64,000 nucleotides of DNA, taken from assembly GCF_003441595.1 (NCBI RefSeq), contig NZ_CP031848.1:186001-250000 (forward strand), written 5' to 3'. This DNA comes from Marinobacter sp. Arc7-DN-1. Lineage in GTDB: Bacteria > Pseudomonadota > Gammaproteobacteria > Pseudomonadales > Oleiphilaceae. This document shows, in pieces, positions 21,557 to 64,000 of the stretch. The position numbers and the translations under genes were made by a program. How positions within the stretch are numbered: the stretch's first letter is position 1; each line of letters begins with the position of its first letter. Below the pieces are notes generated by a model. The model had not been told where the DNA came from and did no database searches. It worked only from the letters and a program-made list of their open reading frames with translations.

Positions 21557-24500
21557 ATGCGTCTGAAGTCCATCAAACTGTCCGGTTTCAAATCGTTCGT
21601 CGATCCGACGACCGTGCCGTTTCCATCGAATATGACCGCCGTCGTCGGGCCTAACGGGTGCGGTAAATCCAACATTATTGACGCGGTCCGTTGGGTGATG
21701 GGCGAAAGCTCCGCGAAATACCTGCGCGGCGAGTCCATGACCGACGTGATCTTCAATGGTTCAAGCGCCCGGAAGCCGGTGGGTCAGGCGTCCATTGAGC
21801 TGGTGTTTGATAACAGCGACGGCTCCGCCCCCGGTGAATTTGTCCGGTTCAACGAAATTTCAGTTCGCCGCCGGGTGTCCCGTGAAGGCCAGTCCGAATA
21901 TTTTCTGAACGGTTCCAAGTGTCGGCGCCGGGACATCACTGACCTGTTCCTCGGTACCGGCCTCGGGCCCCGCAGTTATGCCATCATTGAGCAGGGCATG
22001 ATTTCCCGGCTGATTGAGGCAAAGCCCGAAGAGCTCCGAATCTACATTGAGGAAGCCGCCGGCATCTCCAAGTACAAGGAGCGTCGCCGGGAAACGGAAA
22101 ACCGGATACGCAGGACCCAGGAGAATCTGGAGCGCCTGACGGATCTGCGTGAAGAACTTGGGCGCCAGCTCCAGCATCTTGAACGCCAGGCAGCTGCAGC
22201 GGAAAAGTACAAGGCCTACAAACAGGAAGAGCGCCAGAAAAAGGCCGAGCTGGCAGTTCTCCGCTGGCAATCCCTGGACAACGACCTCCAGACCTGGCGG
22301 GGTAAAATCCGCGACACCGAACTCGAGTTGGAGAAGTATCTGACCGAGCGGGTCAGCCTGGAAACGTCGCTGGAATCCCTGCGAGACAGCCACCAGGATC
22401 GCACCGAACACTTCAATCGCGCCCAGGCCCGTTATTATGAGGCTGGCGCCGATATTGCCCGTATTGAACAAAGTCTCGAGCACCAAAGGGAGCGCAGCCG
22501 CCAGATGGCCACGGAGCTTGATCAGGCCCTGGCGAACCAGCGCGAACTGGCCCGGGAACTGGAACAGGACCAGGACAAGCTGGCCGGTATCCAGGAAGAG
22601 CTGGACATGGTGGAGCCTGAACAGGAGGCGCTCACCATACGCTCCGAGGAATCCGGCGAGAAATTGCAGCAGGCCGAAGATGCCATGGGCGACTGGCAGC
22701 ACAAATGGGAAGATTTCAGCGCTCGCTCCTCGGATGCCCGCCGCCAGGCCGAACTCGCCCAGTCCCGGATCCGGTCCCTCGAGGATGCCATTGAGCAATT
22801 GCTGAATCGCCAGCGCAAACTCCAGGATGAACGGGAAGTGCTGGAAGGCCAGATGGACCGGGCTGAGCTGGAAGAATTGCTGGAACAGCAGGAAACCCTG
22901 GAGCTGCAACGGGAAGAGGCTGCCGAACGGATCGCCGGAATTCAGGATGAGCTCTATGAAGCCCGCCAGAGCCAGCGTGATGCCGAGCAATCCGTGTCTG
23001 AAGAGCGCCAGCGGGTCCAGAGCCTGCGGGCGTCACTGGAATCGCAGCAGGCGCTGCTGGATGAGCAGATGGGGTCCCAGGACGATGTCCTGCAAACCTG
23101 GCTGTCAGAGAATTCGTTGAGCGATATGCCCCGTGTTGCCAGCCAGTTGCAGATTGATGATGGCTGGGAGTTTGCGGTTGAGCAGGTGATCGGGCGGTTT
23201 ACCCAGGGCTTGTGCCTTCCGGGCATCGATCAGCTCTCACTGGCCATGAAGGACGCGCCCAAGGGCCTGGCTCTGGTTGATTCCGGAGTTCCTGCCGGCG
23301 ACATGACCGCCGGGCTGGCGGAAAAAGTGTCCGGAGTTCCGGCCGTTGCTGCTTTGCTTCGGGGTATTGATGCGATAGAGACTCTCTCCGATGCCATGGG
23401 CATGCGATCCGGACTGCAGGATGGCCAGAGTGTGATCACTCCAGAGGGGGTCTGGGTGTCCCGGGACTGGGTACTGATGCCGGATTCAGACGCCGGCCAG
23501 GTCGGTGCTATCGAAAGGCAGAAGAAAGTCACGGAACTGACCTCGCAACTGGCGGAGGCCGAGGAAACCCTGGAATCCGCCTGTGAGCACATGGACAGCC
23601 TCCAGGAGCGTGCCGAGCGGTCCGAATCGGCCCGGGACGAAGCCCAGGCCCGTCTGAGCGAGGCCGACCGGGAACTGAGTGCCCTGTCATCCCGGGTCAG
23701 TGGTCTGCGTGCCCGCGCCGAACAGATTGACGCCCGGCTGCAGCGAATCCGGGAAGATGTCTCGGATATTGCCGGGAATCTTGAAGGCCAGCAGGAGTGC
23801 CTGCAGGACGCCCGTGAGGAGTGGCAGCAGGCCCTGGCTTCCACCGAAGACAGCGACGAAGAGAAAGAACGACTGCTTGAGCAGCGGGACAGCCTCCGCG
23901 AGAACCTTGACCGTCTTCGTCAGGAAGCCCGGCACGACAGGGATCATGCCCACCAGTTGCAACTCCAGTTGCAGTCACTGCACAGCCAGCGCGAAGGCCT
24001 GCGGCAGACCATCGACCGGATGCAGATGCAGAAGGAACGCATTGATGAGCACCTGGAGATTCTGCGGGAATCCCGGGAGAGTGCCGAGGAGCCGATCGAG
24101 GATCTGCAGATGCAGCTCGAAGGCCTGCTGGACCGGCGTCTGGCAGAGGAAGAAAAGCTCGGCGCGGCCCGCGACGCGCTTGAGGAGATAGACCGGGAAG
24201 TGCGGGAAAAGGAGCAGGGCCGAAGCGGCACCGATCACCGAATCCAGGATGTCCGGTCCCGGCTGGAGAAGCTGAAAATGGAATCCCAGGCCCTCGAAAT
24301 CCGTTCCGGCAACCACATCGACCAGCTCAGGGAGCTGGATGTTAAGCTGCAGGATATCCTGCAGCAGTTGCCGGAGGGAGCCAGCGAGGAAGACTGGGCG
24401 GAGGAGCTCGAACGGATCGGTAACCGGATACAGCGCCTTGGTGCCATCAACCTCGCGGCCATCGAGGAGTACCAGGTCCAGAGCGAACGGAAAAGCTACC

Positions 24501-25051
24501 TGGATTCCCAGCACGAAGACCTGATGGAAGCGCTGGAAACGCTGGACACCGCCATCCGCAAGATTGACCGGGAGACCCGGCAACGCTTCAAGGAAACCTT
24601 TGATCAGGTCAATGGCGGGCTCCAGGCTCTGTTCCCGAAGGTCTTCGGTGGCGGTAACGCCTATCTCGAGCTCACCGGCGAGGATCTGCTGGAGACCGGC
24701 GTGGCGATCATGGCACGCCCTCCGGGCAAGAAGAACAGCACCATCCATCTGTTATCCGGTGGCGAAAAGGCACTGACGGCCATCGCCCTGGTGTTCTCCA
24801 TTTTCCAGCTGAACCCGGCGCCTTTCTGTATGCTGGATGAAGTGGACGCTCCGCTGGATGATGCCAACGTTGGTCGCTATGCCAATATGGTTAAAGAGAT
24901 GTCGAAACAGGTCCAGTTCATCTACATTACCCACAACAAGATTGCCATGGAAATGGCAGACCAGCTGATGGGTGTGACCATGCATGAGCCGGGCTGTTCG
25001 CGGCTGGTATCCGTGGATGTGGACGAGGCCGCAGCCCTGGCGGAGGCCTGA
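21557..25051 (+). CDS. smc: Chromosome segregation ATPase SMC
   Basis: The 1164-residue housekeeping condensin ATPase. The N-terminal head has Walker A GPNGCGKSN near residue 32. Two long coiled coils rich in Glu, Gln, Arg and Leu flank a hinge at roughly residues 515-650. The C-terminal head has the ABC signature LLSGGEKALTAIAL and Walker B FCMLDEVDAPLDDAN. Together with ScpA and ScpB it forms a ring that extrudes DNA loops and helps segregate origins. Length is normal for the family. It should not be confused with the second, accessory SMC-like protein at the right edge of the window. Confidence 0.97.
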   Translation: MRLKSIKLSGFKSFVDPTTVPFPSNMTAVVGPNGCGKSNIIDAVRWVMGESSAKYLRGESMTDVIFNGSSARKPVGQASIELVFDNSDGSAPGEFVRFNEISVRRRVSREGQSEYFLNGSKCRRRDITDLFLGTGLGPRSYAIIEQGMISRLIEAKPEELRIYIEEAAGISKYKERRRETENRIRRTQENLERLTDLREELGRQLQHLERQAAAAEKYKAYKQEERQKKAELAVLRWQSLDNDLQTWRGKIRDTELELEKYLTERVSLETSLESLRDSHQDRTEHFNRAQARYYEAGADIARIEQSLEHQRERSRQMATELDQALANQRELARELEQDQDKLAGIQEELDMVEPEQEALTIRSEESGEKLQQAEDAMGDWQHKWEDFSARSSDARRQAELAQSRIRSLEDAIEQLLNRQRKLQDEREVLEGQMDRAELEELLEQQETLELQREEAAERIAGIQDELYEARQSQRDAEQSVSEERQRVQSLRASLESQQALLDEQMGSQDDVLQTWLSENSLSDMPRVASQLQIDDGWEFAVEQVIGRFTQGLCLPGIDQLSLAMKDAPKGLALVDSGVPAGDMTAGLAEKVSGVPAVAALLRGIDAIETLSDAMGMRSGLQDGQSVITPEGVWVSRDWVLMPDSDAGQVGAIERQKKVTELTSQLAEAEETLESACEHMDSLQERAERSESARDEAQARLSEADRELSALSSRVSGLRARAEQIDARLQRIREDVSDIAGNLEGQQECLQDAREEWQQALASTEDSDEEKERLLEQRDSLRENLDRLRQEARHDRDHAHQLQLQLQSLHSQREGLRQTIDRMQMQKERIDEHLEILRESRESAEEPIEDLQMQLEGLLDRRLAEEEKLGAARDALEEIDREVREKEQGRSGTDHRIQDVRSRLEKLKMESQALEIRSGNHIDQLRELDVKLQDILQQLPEGASEEDWAEELERIGNRIQRLGAINLAAIEEYQVQSERKSYLDSQHEDLMEALETLDTAIRKIDRETRQRFKETFDQVNGGLQALFPKVFGGGNAYLELTGEDLLETGVAIMARPPGKKNSTIHLLSGGEKALTAIALVFSIFQLNPAPFCMLDEVDAPLDDANVGRYANMVKEMSKQVQFIYITHNKIAMEMADQLMGVTMHEPGCSRLVSVDVDEAAALAEA

Positions 25052-60376: not shown

Positions 60377-60450
60377 GGCGCGGTGGCAGAGTGGTTATGC
60401 AGCGGACTGCAACTCCGTGTACGCCGGTTCGATTCCGACCCGCGCCTCCA
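60377..60450 (+). tRNA. tRNA-Cys (GCA)
   Basis: A 74-base tRNA closely like E. coli tRNA-Cys. It has acceptor stem GGCGCGG/CCGCGCC with encoded TCCA end, anticodon loop CTGCAAC (anticodon GCA), and T loop GGTTCGATTCC. It is cotranscribed with tRNA-Gly. The usual tRNA-Leu third member of this operon is not seen after it; an AT-rich accessory stretch begins instead. Confidence 0.97.
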
Positions 60451-60500
60451 TTTTCACCCTTTAAAATCAACAAACTAACTCGCCTTAATTTGGTTGAGTT

Positions 60501-60530
60501 TCTCACCCAAAAAATATCCAAATTAAACCC
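60501..60530 (+). repeat. Left copy of a 30-bp imperfect direct repeat
   Basis: TCTCACCCAAAAAATATCCA plus ten bases ending in TTAAACCC. It matches the sequence at 61735-61764 at 25 of 30 positions. The two copies flank the nucleotidyltransferase module. Confidence 0.6.
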
Positions 60531-60547
60531 AAAGTATTTTTACGGGT

Positions 60548-61499
60548 TTAGGTCGCATGCCCGGTCGGTAACCAGCGATGAATTCCAATTGGTGCGGCGT
60601 TTCCGGGTTTGAGGTGACGATACCTGAGCATGGCTCTTCGACGGTACTTGTCATAAGCCTTGCCAATAATCCGGGGTATCTGTTCGTCTCGAGTTCTTTG
60701 GGGCCATCCTCGGTGAGCAGCAGGTATGCAGAGCGTTGGGTCCGCATCGGCACCAAGGACTGCCTCTACGGTGTCGTCATGTTCAAACAGCTGAGACAAG
60801 AACTTAAGAATATTCAGCGCGTGGCGGGGTGCCCCCCCGTTATTTTCAAGATACTGTTCATCAAGCAGTTCACTCAGATAACATTTAGTGATCTTTATGG
60901 CTGTGTTGATTCGAATGGCCTCGCGAGCAGCCTTGTCAGGCCCGTAACCCAGTGTGGCGAAATTATGAATCCTGCTTGCCAGACAAAGTGGGGGTGAGAG
61001 AAAGCGCACAGTTTCGCCACCAATCACAAATCCATCCCAGAAGGCCTCAATATGTTTCTGAGGCACTCCCTGTACGCTCTCCATGAAATCAATCTTGTAT
61101 GGTTCATCTTCCTCTGGCAGATTGAGAAGGACGATGGCGCTTTGTGGCGTGTTGTCACCGAACTTCGGGTAGGTGGCCTTGCCTACCCAGCGCTCGGCGC
61201 AAGCTTCGATAGCTTGTTTGTCCCTGGCATAAAGATCCAGGTCCATGCTGGCAATAGCGATTGCTTCATCTTCGCTGAACTCGAGGGGGCTTGGTCGTGT
61301 CTGGGCATATTTCATGGACCAAAACATAAGTGCTTGGCCGGCCGCCCACGACAAAGACCAGATCCCGTGCGCTGTCTGGAATTCGGCAAAGCAGGTCATT
61401 GATAAGAAAATATTGTTCTACAACGGAACGCTGTTGGTCTTGGATGACCTGAAACGATGGCGGGAATGTTTGGTCGGGGGGAGGATTAGCCTCTGACAC
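60548..61499 (-). pseudogene. Nucleotidyltransferase (AbiEii/DUF6036-like), frameshifted by a 4-bp duplication
   Basis: Two overlapping frames make one protein of about 310 residues. The N-terminal part (GTG 61499, MSEANPPPDQTFPPSF) runs to DLVFVVGG. The rest continues in another frame as QALMFWSMKYAQTRPSPLEF and IASMDLDLYARDKQAIE, which is the nucleotidyltransferase GG...DxD pattern. It ends IGIHRWLPTGHAT. At the junction the DNA reads GGCCGGCC; removing four bases joins VVGG to QALMFW in one frame. The C-terminal half contains RFLSPPLCLASRIHNFATLG and a helical region. Similar folds are toxins or immunity proteins in bacteria-phage conflict, but the exact family is my inference. Confidence 0.65.
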
Positions 61500-61653
61500 G
61501 AGCTCTTACAGGCGCAGGAGCAGCACCTTTAAGCAGGGCGGACATCTCTTTGCCATAGGCAGGGTCTTTATAGTCGCGCATGCGAACAATTTCTTTTTCC
61601 GCACTACGACGGCTAAAGAGATTGTCAGATTTAAGGGCAGCGTTTTGGGCCAT
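61486..61653 (-). CDS. Small basic protein, possible partner of the nucleotidyltransferase
   Basis: A 55-residue ORF from ATG 61653 (TTG 61671 also in frame). It is rich in Arg/Lys with NLFSRRSAEKEIVRMRDYKD in the middle and a basic tail PVRARVRG. Its stop lies 14 bases inside the start of the nucleotidyltransferase gene, so the two are translationally coupled. A small first gene overlapping a nucleotidyltransferase is the layout of some toxin-antitoxin or anti-phage pairs. I recognise no family, and it could be a chance ORF. Confidence 0.5.
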   Translation of the reverse strand: MAQNAALKSDNLFSRRSAEKEIVRMRDYKDPAYGKEMSALLKGAAPAPVRARVRG

Positions 61654-61734
61654 AAGGCTAACCAAGTCCAATAATTAGTCTGAAAATTGTGCGCACATTT
61701 TGATCGTTTGTCAAACTGATAGAAAGCTTTGTTC

Positions 61735-61764
61735 TCTCACCCGAAAAATACCCGGATTAAACCA
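61735..61764 (+). repeat. Right copy of a 30-bp imperfect direct repeat
   Basis: TCTCACCCGAAAAATACCCG plus ten bases ending in TTAAACCA. It covers the stop codon region of the TOPRIM gene (61757). See the copy at 60501-60530. Confidence 0.6.
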
Positions 61765-62626
61765 AAAACACGGCCTCCTGCTCCAGCGCTTTTCCGCTGA
61801 GCTTCAGGGCTTTCAGAAGCTCCAGAACCTCTTCCGGTTCCTTGTCCGGATCCAACCTCTGCTCGGCACTGGCCACATATTTAAGATTTTTTCGCCACAC
61901 GTCAGAATCGCCGTAGCGTTCCAGTTTCCGCTTCCAGTCAGGCATTAGCCACAGTTCGACGTTTTCGCCCATTGCCTGGCGCAGACGGGCATAATTCTGA
62001 AGCCCGACGCCATCGTAGTCGGGAAAGAAAAGAATCCTCGGGCTTCGGCTTCTCGCAACTAACCAGGTGATCAGCCGGTTGCTGATCTGGCCCTGATAAA
62101 AGAGTACGGATCCATTCAGGTCCTCGGGTACCCAACTGGTGTCGTCCAGCAGGGCCTGGTTTTCCACCAACCACAAGGGGTTGCCCGAGGTCAGCGAGGT
62201 ATCCGCCTGGCTGATATCGATGGCCAGGGCTCCTGCCAGGGAGGATAGGGCCCAGAGATTGAGGGATTTGCTGTCGCAACTCCAGGTCACTCCAGGGGCC
62301 GTTGCTTTCAGTAGCCGGTAGGAAGCCTCGTGAGTATTCTTCCGACCTTTCGTGGATCGGGTAAGCGCCAGGTTCTTTGCACGAACCGGGAGATTCTCGT
62401 CAACCGATTCGGCATCAGGTCGTAACTCTCGAAGATTCTGCCTAAACACCGTCGGGTTGGTGACACGATAGACGGTGCCGTTTCCCTGGCGCACCCTGGT
62501 TACGCAGGCGGTCGTGCGGAGGAAGTCATCAAGTACTCGTTTTTGGGAAGGAGTGAACCGCGAGCCCACGCACTCTCCACCAGAATCCTCTAGCTTGATC
62601 AATGCTTCTCTCAGGGATCTGTTCAT
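61757..62626 (-). CDS. TOPRIM (DUF2220-like) protein, JetD/MksG-like, short form
   Basis: A 289-residue protein right after the SMC-like gene (10-base gap; a TTG at 62647 would overlap it). The C-terminal half has the TOPRIM pattern of DUF2220: WLVENQALL with Glu155, then LFFPDYDGVGLQNYARLRQ with Asp203 and Asp205. The tail ends LEQEAVFLV, matching the LEQE ending of JetD/MksG. In Wadjet/MksBEFG these residues form the nuclease site that cuts plasmid DNA. The first 110 residues (RFTPSQKRVLDDFLRTTACV, GNGTVYRVTNPTVF) look like a winged helix instead of the longer DUF3322 region of classical JetD (about 380-400 residues). The subunit role is inferred from the neighbour. Confidence 0.75.
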   Translation of the reverse strand: MNRSLREALIKLEDSGGECVGSRFTPSQKRVLDDFLRTTACVTRVRQGNGTVYRVTNPTVFRQNLRELRPDAESVDENLPVRAKNLALTRSTKGRKNTHEASYRLLKATAPGVTWSCDSKSLNLWALSSLAGALAIDISQADTSLTSGNPLWLVENQALLDDTSWVPEDLNGSVLFYQGQISNRLITWLVARSRSPRILFFPDYDGVGLQNYARLRQAMGENVELWLMPDWKRKLERYGDSDVWRKNLKYVASAEQRLDPDKEPEEVLELLKALKLSGKALEQEAVFLV

Positions 62627-62636
62627 GGGTGGGAAC

Positions 62637-64000
62637 TCACGCCTCAACAGCCTCTAACGGTTGCAGGATCTGCCAGTGTTTGCGGCTGATGTGGTTCATA
62701 CCGTTGCTCCTCTGCTGAATAGGCACGCAGTAGTGGGCCGTGATCAACGGTGAAGGTGAGGCAAAGATCAGCGCGAAACCAAATTCGGAAGCGGTCTTGA
62801 TCAGGCTCTTCTGGTTCGCCGCGTCCAGGGCCAGGGCTTCGTCCAGGTAGCACAACGCCTGGATCTGACGGGTCTTGTCCTGCATCAGGTACAGCATGGC
62901 CAGTCCGGTAACCAGTTTGGCCATGAGCACGGTTCCGTTGGAGGCCGCGCTGTCGATATCGTCAAAGCTCTCAGGGTCCTGGTTTTCCTTTCCCAGCTCG
63001 AATGTCAGTCGGAACAGGTCGGCCACCTTCAGGCCGTGGCGGGCGCTGCCCTCGTCAATCAATAACTGGCGGGCCTGGTCCAGCTGCCGGTCGTCGAGCA
63101 CACTGGTTTGATTGAACAACTCAAAGGACTCACCGGATTCTACCTTTTCCGCAGTCTGTATCAGCAGATCAATGGCGTCCACCAGGTGGCTTTCGTGAAC
63201 CGGCTGGATGCGGAACACCTTGAGATCTGACAGCCTTCTGCGGCTGATTAACCGATTGAATTCATGCATGGCATTTTCAAAGGACTGCAGGTTGCCCCGA
63301 AGATCCCGGAGACTGGCCGTCACGGTGACCACGGCGCTGCGGGCTTTCTTTTCCAGTGCTTCTGCTTCCCGGGCGAGGTGATGGCGAAATTCAACCATCA
63401 GCCGGATTTCCTCCTCCGTGCTCGGGGCATACTGGAACTTGGTCAGTCCGCCGCTGTGGAGCGTGATGCGCAGGTGGTGGAGGTCCCGGTCCAGGTCTTT
63501 CAGTCGCTGGCAGTCCCGCTGGTATTCCCGCAACGTTTCGGCCAACCGGTCGAGGGGTAACTCGGGGTCGCCCACCCAGGGAGTGTGGGGCAGGTCTTCC
63601 AGCCAGTTAAATTGCTCGTCTGTATCACCCCGGTTCTGGCGGATGCGATCTATCTCCTGATGCGCGGCCTCCAGCTTTTGCTTTTGGTTCGCCAATGTCT
63701 GGAGCTGATCTCTCAGGGCTTGTTGTCGGACGCTGGCCTGTTTCTGGGCATGGTCAATCTCAGTCAGTTCCCGGTTGGCTGCGCCCATTTCCTTTCGTCG
63801 GTCCGGGTGAGTGTTTTGAAGGCGTTTCAACTCATCAAACTGTTCCAGGCCCTTTTCCAGATTCTTTGCTTCCTGCTCAAGCTCCAGCTTGCGCTTCCGT
63901 TGGCTATCGAGCTCCCGGGCCGCAGCCTGCTGTTCCTCCAGCGCCTGGAGCCGGGCCTGGCATTCTTCGGTCAGGCGCGCAATCTCCTCAGCTGACCGTT
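62637..64000 (-). CDS. SMC-like coiled-coil ATPase (JetC/MksB-like), N-terminal part outside window
   Basis: About 450 residues are visible, open to the right edge. The first 150 are strongly charged coiled coil (AKNLEKGLEQFDELKRL, EMGAANRELTEIDHAQKQAS). A further coiled coil and helical segment follow. The C-terminal ATPase head has DDIDSAASNGTVLMAKLVTG, in the place of the ABC signature. Walker B is ALCYLDEALALDAANQ, followed by SEFGFALIFASPSPLI. SNGT-K in place of LSGGE is, as I recall it, typical of JetC/MksB-type condensins and not of housekeeping SMC. The Walker A end is not seen. It is the first visible gene of a minus-strand operon ending in the TOPRIM gene. The other subunits (JetA, JetB type) should lie beyond the edge. 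Confidence 0.75.
   Translation of the reverse strand, partial: RSAEEIARLTEECQARLQALEEQQAAARELDSQRKRKLELEQEAKNLEKGLEQFDELKRLQNTHPDRRKEMGAANRELTEIDHAQKQASVRQQALRDQLQTLANQKQKLEAAHQEIDRIRQNRGDTDEQFNWLEDLPHTPWVGDPELPLDRLAETLREYQRDCQRLKDLDRDLHHLRITLHSGGLTKFQYAPSTEEEIRLMVEFRHHLAREAEALEKKARSAVVTVTASLRDLRGNLQSFENAMHEFNRLISRRRLSDLKVFRIQPVHESHLVDAIDLLIQTAEKVESGESFELFNQTSVLDDRQLDQARQLLIDEGSARHGLKVADLFRLTFELGKENQDPESFDDIDSAASNGTVLMAKLVTGLAMLYLMQDKTRQIQALCYLDEALALDAANQKSLIKTASEFGFALIFASPSPLITAHYCVPIQQRSNGMNHISRKHWQILQPLEAVEA

Follow-up and report, generated by a model that had tools for sequence, protein, structure and literature searches.

Does the right edge of this stretch of DNA encode a machine that destroys plasmids, a condensin that organises the chromosome, or something else again? 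The stretch, hereafter the window, comprises 64,000 nucleotides of the 4.30-Mb one-contig genome of Marinobacter sp. Arc7-DN-1 (G000:C1:186001-250000). Near its right edge lie the C-terminal part of a gene for an SMC-like ATPase and a gene for a TOPRIM protein, which the initial annotation read as a probable divergent system of the Wadjet or MksBEFG type. The two genes belong to a complete mksF-mksE-mksB-mksG operon, and we consider it probable, from our comparison with studied relatives, that its motor reels in small circular DNA for cleavage by a predicted nuclease, and that incoming plasmids are thereby destroyed. Related to the MksBEF condensins, the operon is both armed and mobile.

The operon and its four products

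We read the next 16 kb past the right window edge, with the numbering continued beyond 64000 (a position in that stretch is the window position minus 60000). Read in this way, the operon is complete on the minus strand and is transcribed in the order mksF, mksE, mksB, mksG; the four genes are co-directional, tightly packed and open in this copy (Table 1). The mksE and mksB genes overlap by 4 bases, and a gap of 10 bases separates mksB from mksG. The kleisin gene, the KITE gene and the Walker A motif that the initial annotation proposed to look for to the right of the window are all found in the next 4 kb.

The open frame that runs into the right edge (453 aa, 62637-63998, minus strand) is the C-terminal half of the 923-aa MksB, and the SNGT signature and DE Walker B by which it had been recognised as an SMC-like ATPase are borne out by the motifs of the whole gene. 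The match to the NCBIfam model NF040859 covers residues 3-913. Walker A (APNNTGKTS) is positioned at residue 33, beyond the window, the signature (AASNGTVLMAK) at residue 821, and Walker B (ALCYLDEALALD) at residue 851. Over 20 aligned SMC rows, the window row included, Walker A is readable in 20, the DE of Walker B in 19 and the SNGT in 14; one row has no residues at the Walker B position. As had been claimed, the gene is separate from the housekeeping smc near 21.6 kb, which is found at 21557-25051 (TIGR02168, 1135 bits, cut-off 567).

An SMC-like ATPase could also be a repair ATPase of the RecN, SbcC or Rad50 type that happens to lie beside an unrelated gene, and MksB does match the generic models AAA_15 and AAA_21, below their cut-offs. 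However, Rad50/SbcC-type models reach at most 12.3 bits, compared with 355.9 bits along the full length for the Mks model, and kleisin and KITE genes are present. The better score for a repair family that was named in advance as a refuting outcome thus did not occur. The profile scores, the KITE gene and the kleisin fold match refute this reading, to which we give practically no credence.

MksE is recognised by the Pfam family MksE (cut-off 27 bits), and MksF matches NF040857 over residues 1-397. The predicted model of MksF (predicted local distance difference test score 79.7; 53 of the 120 listed homologues used as input, 629 homologues found) is composed of an N-terminal winged helix, a helical middle domain and a C-terminal winged helix, the three parts by which a kleisin is recognised. 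Foldseek ranks 1-11 for this model are all chains of MukBEF, MukEF, MukF or JetABCD. The 926-position NF040859, which describes the SMC protein, is labelled MksF in NCBIfam, and the 412-position NF040857, which describes the kleisin, is labelled MksB; judged against the usage in excerpts of PMC10123090, in which the ATPase is called MksB and the kleisin MksF, the two names appear swapped.

The ATG of mksG, at 62626, is placed ten bases after the mksB stop, as the initial annotation had it, and homologues have the same start; the 296-aa version of the frame in the program-made list begins at an upstream TTG. The assignment of its product as DUF2220-like was not upheld. The sole Pfam match of MksG is to DUF7281 (PF23947, 39.4 bits, cut-off 27), with no match to DUF2220/JetD_C at E 1. 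The predicted model contains one winged helix and a TOPRIM domain and resembles MksG, JetD and topoisomerase VI-A. The acidic residues of the TOPRIM motifs (E/DxD/ExE) are invariant in 102 relatives, with E155, D203 and D205 unchanged in all 102 aligned rows, so that the catalytic glutamate and the DxD of a TOPRIM subunit are in place. There are 97 residues ahead of the matched TOPRIM, compared with 205-214 in JetD and in MksG of C. glutamicum. Compared with that of JetD, the N-terminal region lacks about 110 residues, and the long DUF3322/CAP region that belongs to the DUF3322 plus DUF2220 definition of JetD/MksG is missing from it. When the PDB was searched by sequence with MksG and MksB and with profiles of MksG and MksF, only chance matches or none resulted, and structure comparison was required.

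Compared with five relatives, the ratio of nonsynonymous to synonymous substitution rates (dN/dS) is 0.12-0.15 for mksG, 0.07-0.10 for mksB, 0.08-0.10 for mksE and 0.05-0.07 for mksF; dS is close to saturation. Judged by these ratios, the operon is under purifying selection.

Table 1 Coordinates of the operon and neighbouring features (window numbering, continued beyond 64000)
Feature	Position	Strand	Product or evidence
mksF	67325-66030 (beyond window)	-	kleisin, 431 aa; NF040857 124 bits, predicted fold
mksE	65998-65405 (beyond window)	-	KITE, 197 aa; PF21980 108 bits
mksB	65408-62637 (window part 62637..64000, C-terminal half)	-	SMC-like ATPase, 923 aa; NF040859 355.9 bits
mksG	62626-61757	-	predicted TOPRIM nuclease subunit, 289 aa; winged helix + TOPRIM, DUF7281
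vapC-like PIN gene	67331-67765 (beyond window)	-	144 aa; PF01850 58.7 bits
phd-like antitoxin gene	67765-68001 (beyond window)	-	78 aa; open frame; PF02604 42.5 bits on M. orientalis copy
tRNA-Cys(GCA), island insertion site	60377..60450	+	ARAGORN; 16-base repeat of its 3' end in M. orientalis
Island end common to mks-bearing relatives	60451..60538		sequence matches among relatives
Extra insert (1.2 kb) from island end to mksG	60539..61756		GC 0.507; holds 283-aa frame

Placement among Wadjet and MksBEF systems

Co-directional genes for a kleisin, a KITE protein, an SMC protein and a TOPRIM protein, together with the three ATPase motifs, place the operon in the MksBEFG/Wadjet group in its broad sense. 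The Wadjet models of PADLOC give JetB1 15, JetC1 21.1, JetD1 20, JetD2 19 and JetD3 15.5 bits with the operon proteins, and no match to JetA at E 1. As a positive control, two Wadjet I operons of the same genome reach 265-1565 bits with the JetC and JetD models and 166-802 bits with the JetA and JetB models. The operon differs from type I JetABCD (P. aeruginosa PA14 JetD, 7til; E. coli JetABCD, 8q72) in its weak JetB, JetC and JetD scores, in having no JetA match and in an SMC protein that splits from the JetC rows of the tree described below; the initial word "divergent" was thus apt. The operon also differs from C. glutamicum MksBEFG (MksG 8b7f), where MksB has 1111 aa in the published excerpt (PMC10123090), in that MksB here has 923 aa, the N-terminal region of the 289-aa MksG is much shorter, and neither protein has a sequence match to PDB chains beyond chance. 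The operon therefore encodes a Wadjet-group complex in composition, and presumably in mechanism, that the profile test does not assign to Wadjet I-III.

The SMC, KITE and kleisin proteins match NF040857-NF040859, which we take to represent the P. aeruginosa-type MksBEF complex, along most of their length. The scores are far under the equivalog cut-offs (SMC 356 of 1900, KITE 69 of 400 and kleisin 124 of 750 bits). A complex of the P. aeruginosa type would score above these cut-offs and have no TOPRIM partner; here the scores are low and the TOPRIM gene is present. In the three genomes that come closest to the model, MksG has no match.

In a tree of 30 SMC head domains, 7 JetC rows (six of type I, one of type II and none of type III) split from the 23 others at 100/100. 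The window lineage lies opposite the JetC side, with MksB rows that have no MksG and with two further families, the DUF3584 family and a family of 886-998 aa, which are joined to each other at 98/98. The window lineage and the MksG-less rows are not strictly one group in this tree (36% of bootstrap trees). In a full-length tree of 20 rows, 14 mksG-bearing and 3 mksG-less rows come together in a single group, set apart at 100/100 from three rows of the 886-998-aa family. The MksG-less operons require two changes in this tree and form a single group in 14% of bootstrap trees, where long branches meet; we therefore do not claim one loss of mksG. The trees took in 4 of 11 distinct close copies of the operon (five from genomes of the genus and six further named copies, the remainder of ten named loci after four from genomes already counted; ten from Marinobacter and one from Kineobactrum), and contain no type III JetC, no MukB and no sequence known to be from P. 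aeruginosa.

The mksG gene accompanies mksB genes at this divergence from the model. NF040859 finds a match in 10 of 369 genomes sampled from the class, 7 of them at near-full length; in the other three the match is confined to roughly the first 100 residues, and they were excluded. In the five with mksB at 317-356 bits, an MksG match lies 43-89 bases from the mksB match in every case. Anywhere in the genomes with higher-scoring matches, no MksG match was found for G055 (1991 bits, above the equivalog cut-off) and G296 (1006 bits), and no DUF7281 match for G042, from the same order (587 bits), as judged by our mksG-detecting A2 profile or by PF23947. The A2 profile barely reaches the TOPRIM proteins of two other lineages (0.6-15 bits), so its silence does not exclude other TOPRIM types. 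Two genomes with an MksG match and no mksB match (G070, in fragments with one stop, and G346, on a 4.7-kb contig) are not counted among the five, and the stop in the MksG match of G208 is the gene's own final codon. In the genus set of 37 genomes, all five long MksB matches adjoin a DUF7281 match. All six plasmid records that match MksB also have an adjoining MksG gene: Halioglobus (156 kb), Polaromonas (190 kb), Neptuniibacter (172 kb), Salinibacter (76 kb), Pseudomonas Leaf58 (904 kb) and P. amygdali (972 kb). In the five annotated plasmid records, the operon genes are called "hypothetical protein" throughout.

These data bear on the reading of the operon as an accessory condensin that organises the chromosome, as P. 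aeruginosa MksBEF does, with the TOPRIM partner acting as a topoisomerase or repair factor. The known role of the P. aeruginosa complex speaks for it. Against it, the operon is mobile and its distribution is patchy (a long MksB match in 5 of the 37 genus genomes, the window genome included, one of them in broken frames), a housekeeping smc is present, and the operons nearest the NCBIfam MksBEF model are without a TOPRIM match while operons like the Marinobacter one keep it. We regard this reading as unlikely. Excerpts of a 2023 review suggest a Wadjet origin, followed by loss of the nuclease, for MksBEF, the chromosome condensin of P. aeruginosa (PMC10586767). The pattern of mksG presence fits the idea that this condensin arose from an armed complex, by one or more losses.

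The operon may represent a fourth kind of Wadjet, namely a mobile plasmid-killing complex of the MksBEF lineage with a minimal nuclease of winged helix and TOPRIM, and the still-armed sister that would have given rise to the chromosome condensin MksBEF of Pseudomonas by loss of the nuclease; we put this forward tentatively, at a little under an even chance. No description of this variant, and no mention of "DUF7281", was found in the literature searched, at the level of titles and abstract openings for the former. The survey of Wadjet-group operons across about 257,500 genomes, as excerpted from PMC7617805, may list operons like the Marinobacter one in its Data S1.

Proposed action and the evidence against it

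The mechanism we propose is inferred from the biochemistry of Wadjet and of C. glutamicum MksBEFG. The available excerpts state that Wadjet acts on plasmids (PMC10586767) and that C. glutamicum MksG is a nuclease in a system of plasmid restriction (PMC10123090). The kleisin MksF would bridge the MksB heads together with MksE, and a dimer of dimers of MksBEF would extrude DNA loops. On a small circle, extrusion would run to completion and the complex would stall; the stalled complex would then pass the DNA to an MksG dimer for a metal-dependent cut. The CAP domains of JetD are described as able to close over the DNA cleft (PMC10586767, in part). In MksG a single winged helix stands where JetD has the longer CAP region. 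It would therefore fall to this one domain and to MksBEF, through contacts with MksF or MksE, to hold the nuclease in check.

Several observations weigh against this proposal. The MksBEF-family complex of P. aeruginosa organises the chromosome, according to the same excerpts (PMC10586767). The PADLOC models (version 2.0.0) do not reach the operon, and the top PADLOC matches of MksB are LmuB (27.3 bits) and AriA (25.5 bits), above JetC1. The template modelling scores of the MksF model in Foldseek are low (0.16-0.32 by query and 0.30 at the best rank) with large root-mean-square deviations, because the domains sit differently or move. The short N-terminus of MksG means that its control may differ from that of JetD. 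Operons of the same kind reside on circular plasmids of 76-972 kb, so some circles must be tolerated. Finally, a motor gene is broken in 3 of the 11 close copies, with mksG whole each time, and a whole mksG beside a broken motor is odd if the free nuclease is dangerous.

On the MksBEF side of the SMC tree, the operon stands as a relative that carries a nuclease, and, being small and complete, it offers a direct test object for the relation between a plasmid-defence machine and a chromosome condensin. The questions it raises are whether the armed relative restricts plasmids, whether its motor acts on chromosomal DNA too, and what restrains a TOPRIM nuclease whose N-terminus is so short. The operon would also add to counts of anti-plasmid systems a class that models of the PADLOC type miss, in a genome that has two Wadjet I operons besides.

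The tRNA-Cys island and other SMC-TOPRIM operons

The module adjoins a tRNA-Cys gene, as stated initially, and ARAGORN confirms it. In 8 of the 11 close copies, the 3' end of this gene is found close to the mksG end, at about 0.15 kb in seven and at 1.3 kb in the window genome; one further copy has a 50-base fragment there, and in two neither was found within the stretch read. The 88 bases after the tRNA are common, whole or in pieces, to the mks-bearing copies at the tRNA-Cys site. In operon-less stretches, the match ends by 60469 in 10 of 11, and the eleventh (G007) reaches 60523. G007 has another insertion at the same tRNA-Cys site (L119 1246-4862), which carries other cargo and is bordered by a 37-base tRNA-gene repeat.

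In M. orientalis (L062), 16 bases of the tRNA-Cys 3' end recur without mismatch 7.6 kb off, just outside the integrase gene and adjoining an NADH-dehydrogenase-like gene. In G009, the NADH-dehydrogenase-like gene is 140 bases from tRNA-Cys. M. orientalis and G009 are thus the occupied and the empty site of a 7.6-kb island. The stretches read from other integrase-bearing copies contain no attachment-site repeat, whether sought as 14 exact bases or with 3 mismatches in 20; with the repeat found in M. orientalis only, a single genome shows the island at both its ends. A tyrosine-integrase-like gene (PHROG integrase, 27.8 bits; no Pfam match) is whole in 4 of the 11 close copies, broken or partial in 3, cut by a contig end in 1 and absent from 3, the window genome among them.

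A toxin-antitoxin-like pair had been placed in the window, where no toxin or antitoxin profile matches; the stretch in question (60548-61671) has no profile match in PADLOC, Pfam, NCBIfam or PHROGs, and this reading was dropped. A pair of the phd-vapC type (PF02604, PF01850) accompanies the operon at its other end, outside the window. The PIN gene adjoins mksF in all 11 close copies, and the phd-like gene is present in all 8 copies with maps or frames read; in M. orientalis the pair is at L062 3680-4374. The operon is cargo of a tRNA-Cys island together with this pair, which possibly holds the island in place.

The integrase islands with their phd-vapC pair and the six plasmid records would also suit a weapon borne by islands and plasmids and used between mobile elements, phages included, with the circular or newly replicated DNA of rivals as its target. 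This differs from the destruction of incoming plasmids in the target; the mechanism is the same. Phage-specific evidence is absent, however, and the published relatives act on plasmids in the excerpts cited (PMC10586767, PMC10123090), and we think this alternative quite improbable beside the plasmid-restricting complex that we favour.

Decay has affected the motor genes of individual copies. In M. salarius (L048/L065), mksF and mksB each lie in several frames; in Marinobacter sp. SS21 (L067 7701-9008), a 435-aa frame matches both MksF and MksB, a fusion by deletion; and in Kineobactrum (L063), mksE is split into two frames. The extra insert of the window genome has no match in the relatives compared. 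Its 283-aa frame (60548-61399, minus strand), the larger frame of the supposed toxin-antitoxin pair, belongs to an uncharacterised family with 10 homologues found, most of 299-329 aa, and by comparison with them looks N-terminally shortened.

Three SMC-TOPRIM operons occur together in this genome. One Wadjet I operon (G000:C1:403304-410490) has four open genes, with PADLOC scores of 367 bits for JetA, 166 for JetB, 1053 for JetC and 265 for JetD; TIR-like and WYL-like genes were recognised by eye upstream of it. The second (G000:C1:1133746-1140504) also has four open genes, with JetA (DUF3375) at 802, JetB at 342, JetC at 1565 and JetD at 574 bits, and different models are on top than in the first. 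At G000:C1:3103594-3104364, a frame that by eye resembles an SMC N-terminus is followed 240 bases on by a C-terminal piece of DUF7281 (38 bits), likely the remnant of an operon of DUF3584 SMC and DUF7281.

Operons of this last kind (type B) are found in congeners (L051-L054), with a DUF3584 SMC of 1244-1274 aa, an MksE-family KITE, a third gene of 414-448 aa without a Pfam match (profiles run on L053) and a DUF7281 TOPRIM gene. They resemble the window operon in the DUF7281 TOPRIM protein of about 290 aa and in the MksE-family KITE, and differ from it in the gene order SMC-KITE-third gene-TOPRIM, in the length of the SMC and in a long separate branch of the tree. A third lineage in congeners (L057, L058, L060) has a TOPRIM-like gene first and then an SMC gene of 980-998 aa, to which L057 and L058 add a 472-aa gene and a KITE gene. 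Its TOPRIM-like gene matches JetD_C at 33.7 bits in L060 and DUF7281 at 21.6 bits, under the cut-off, in L057. A short NF040859 match of this kind is present in 21 of the 37 genus genomes, of which three loci were read.

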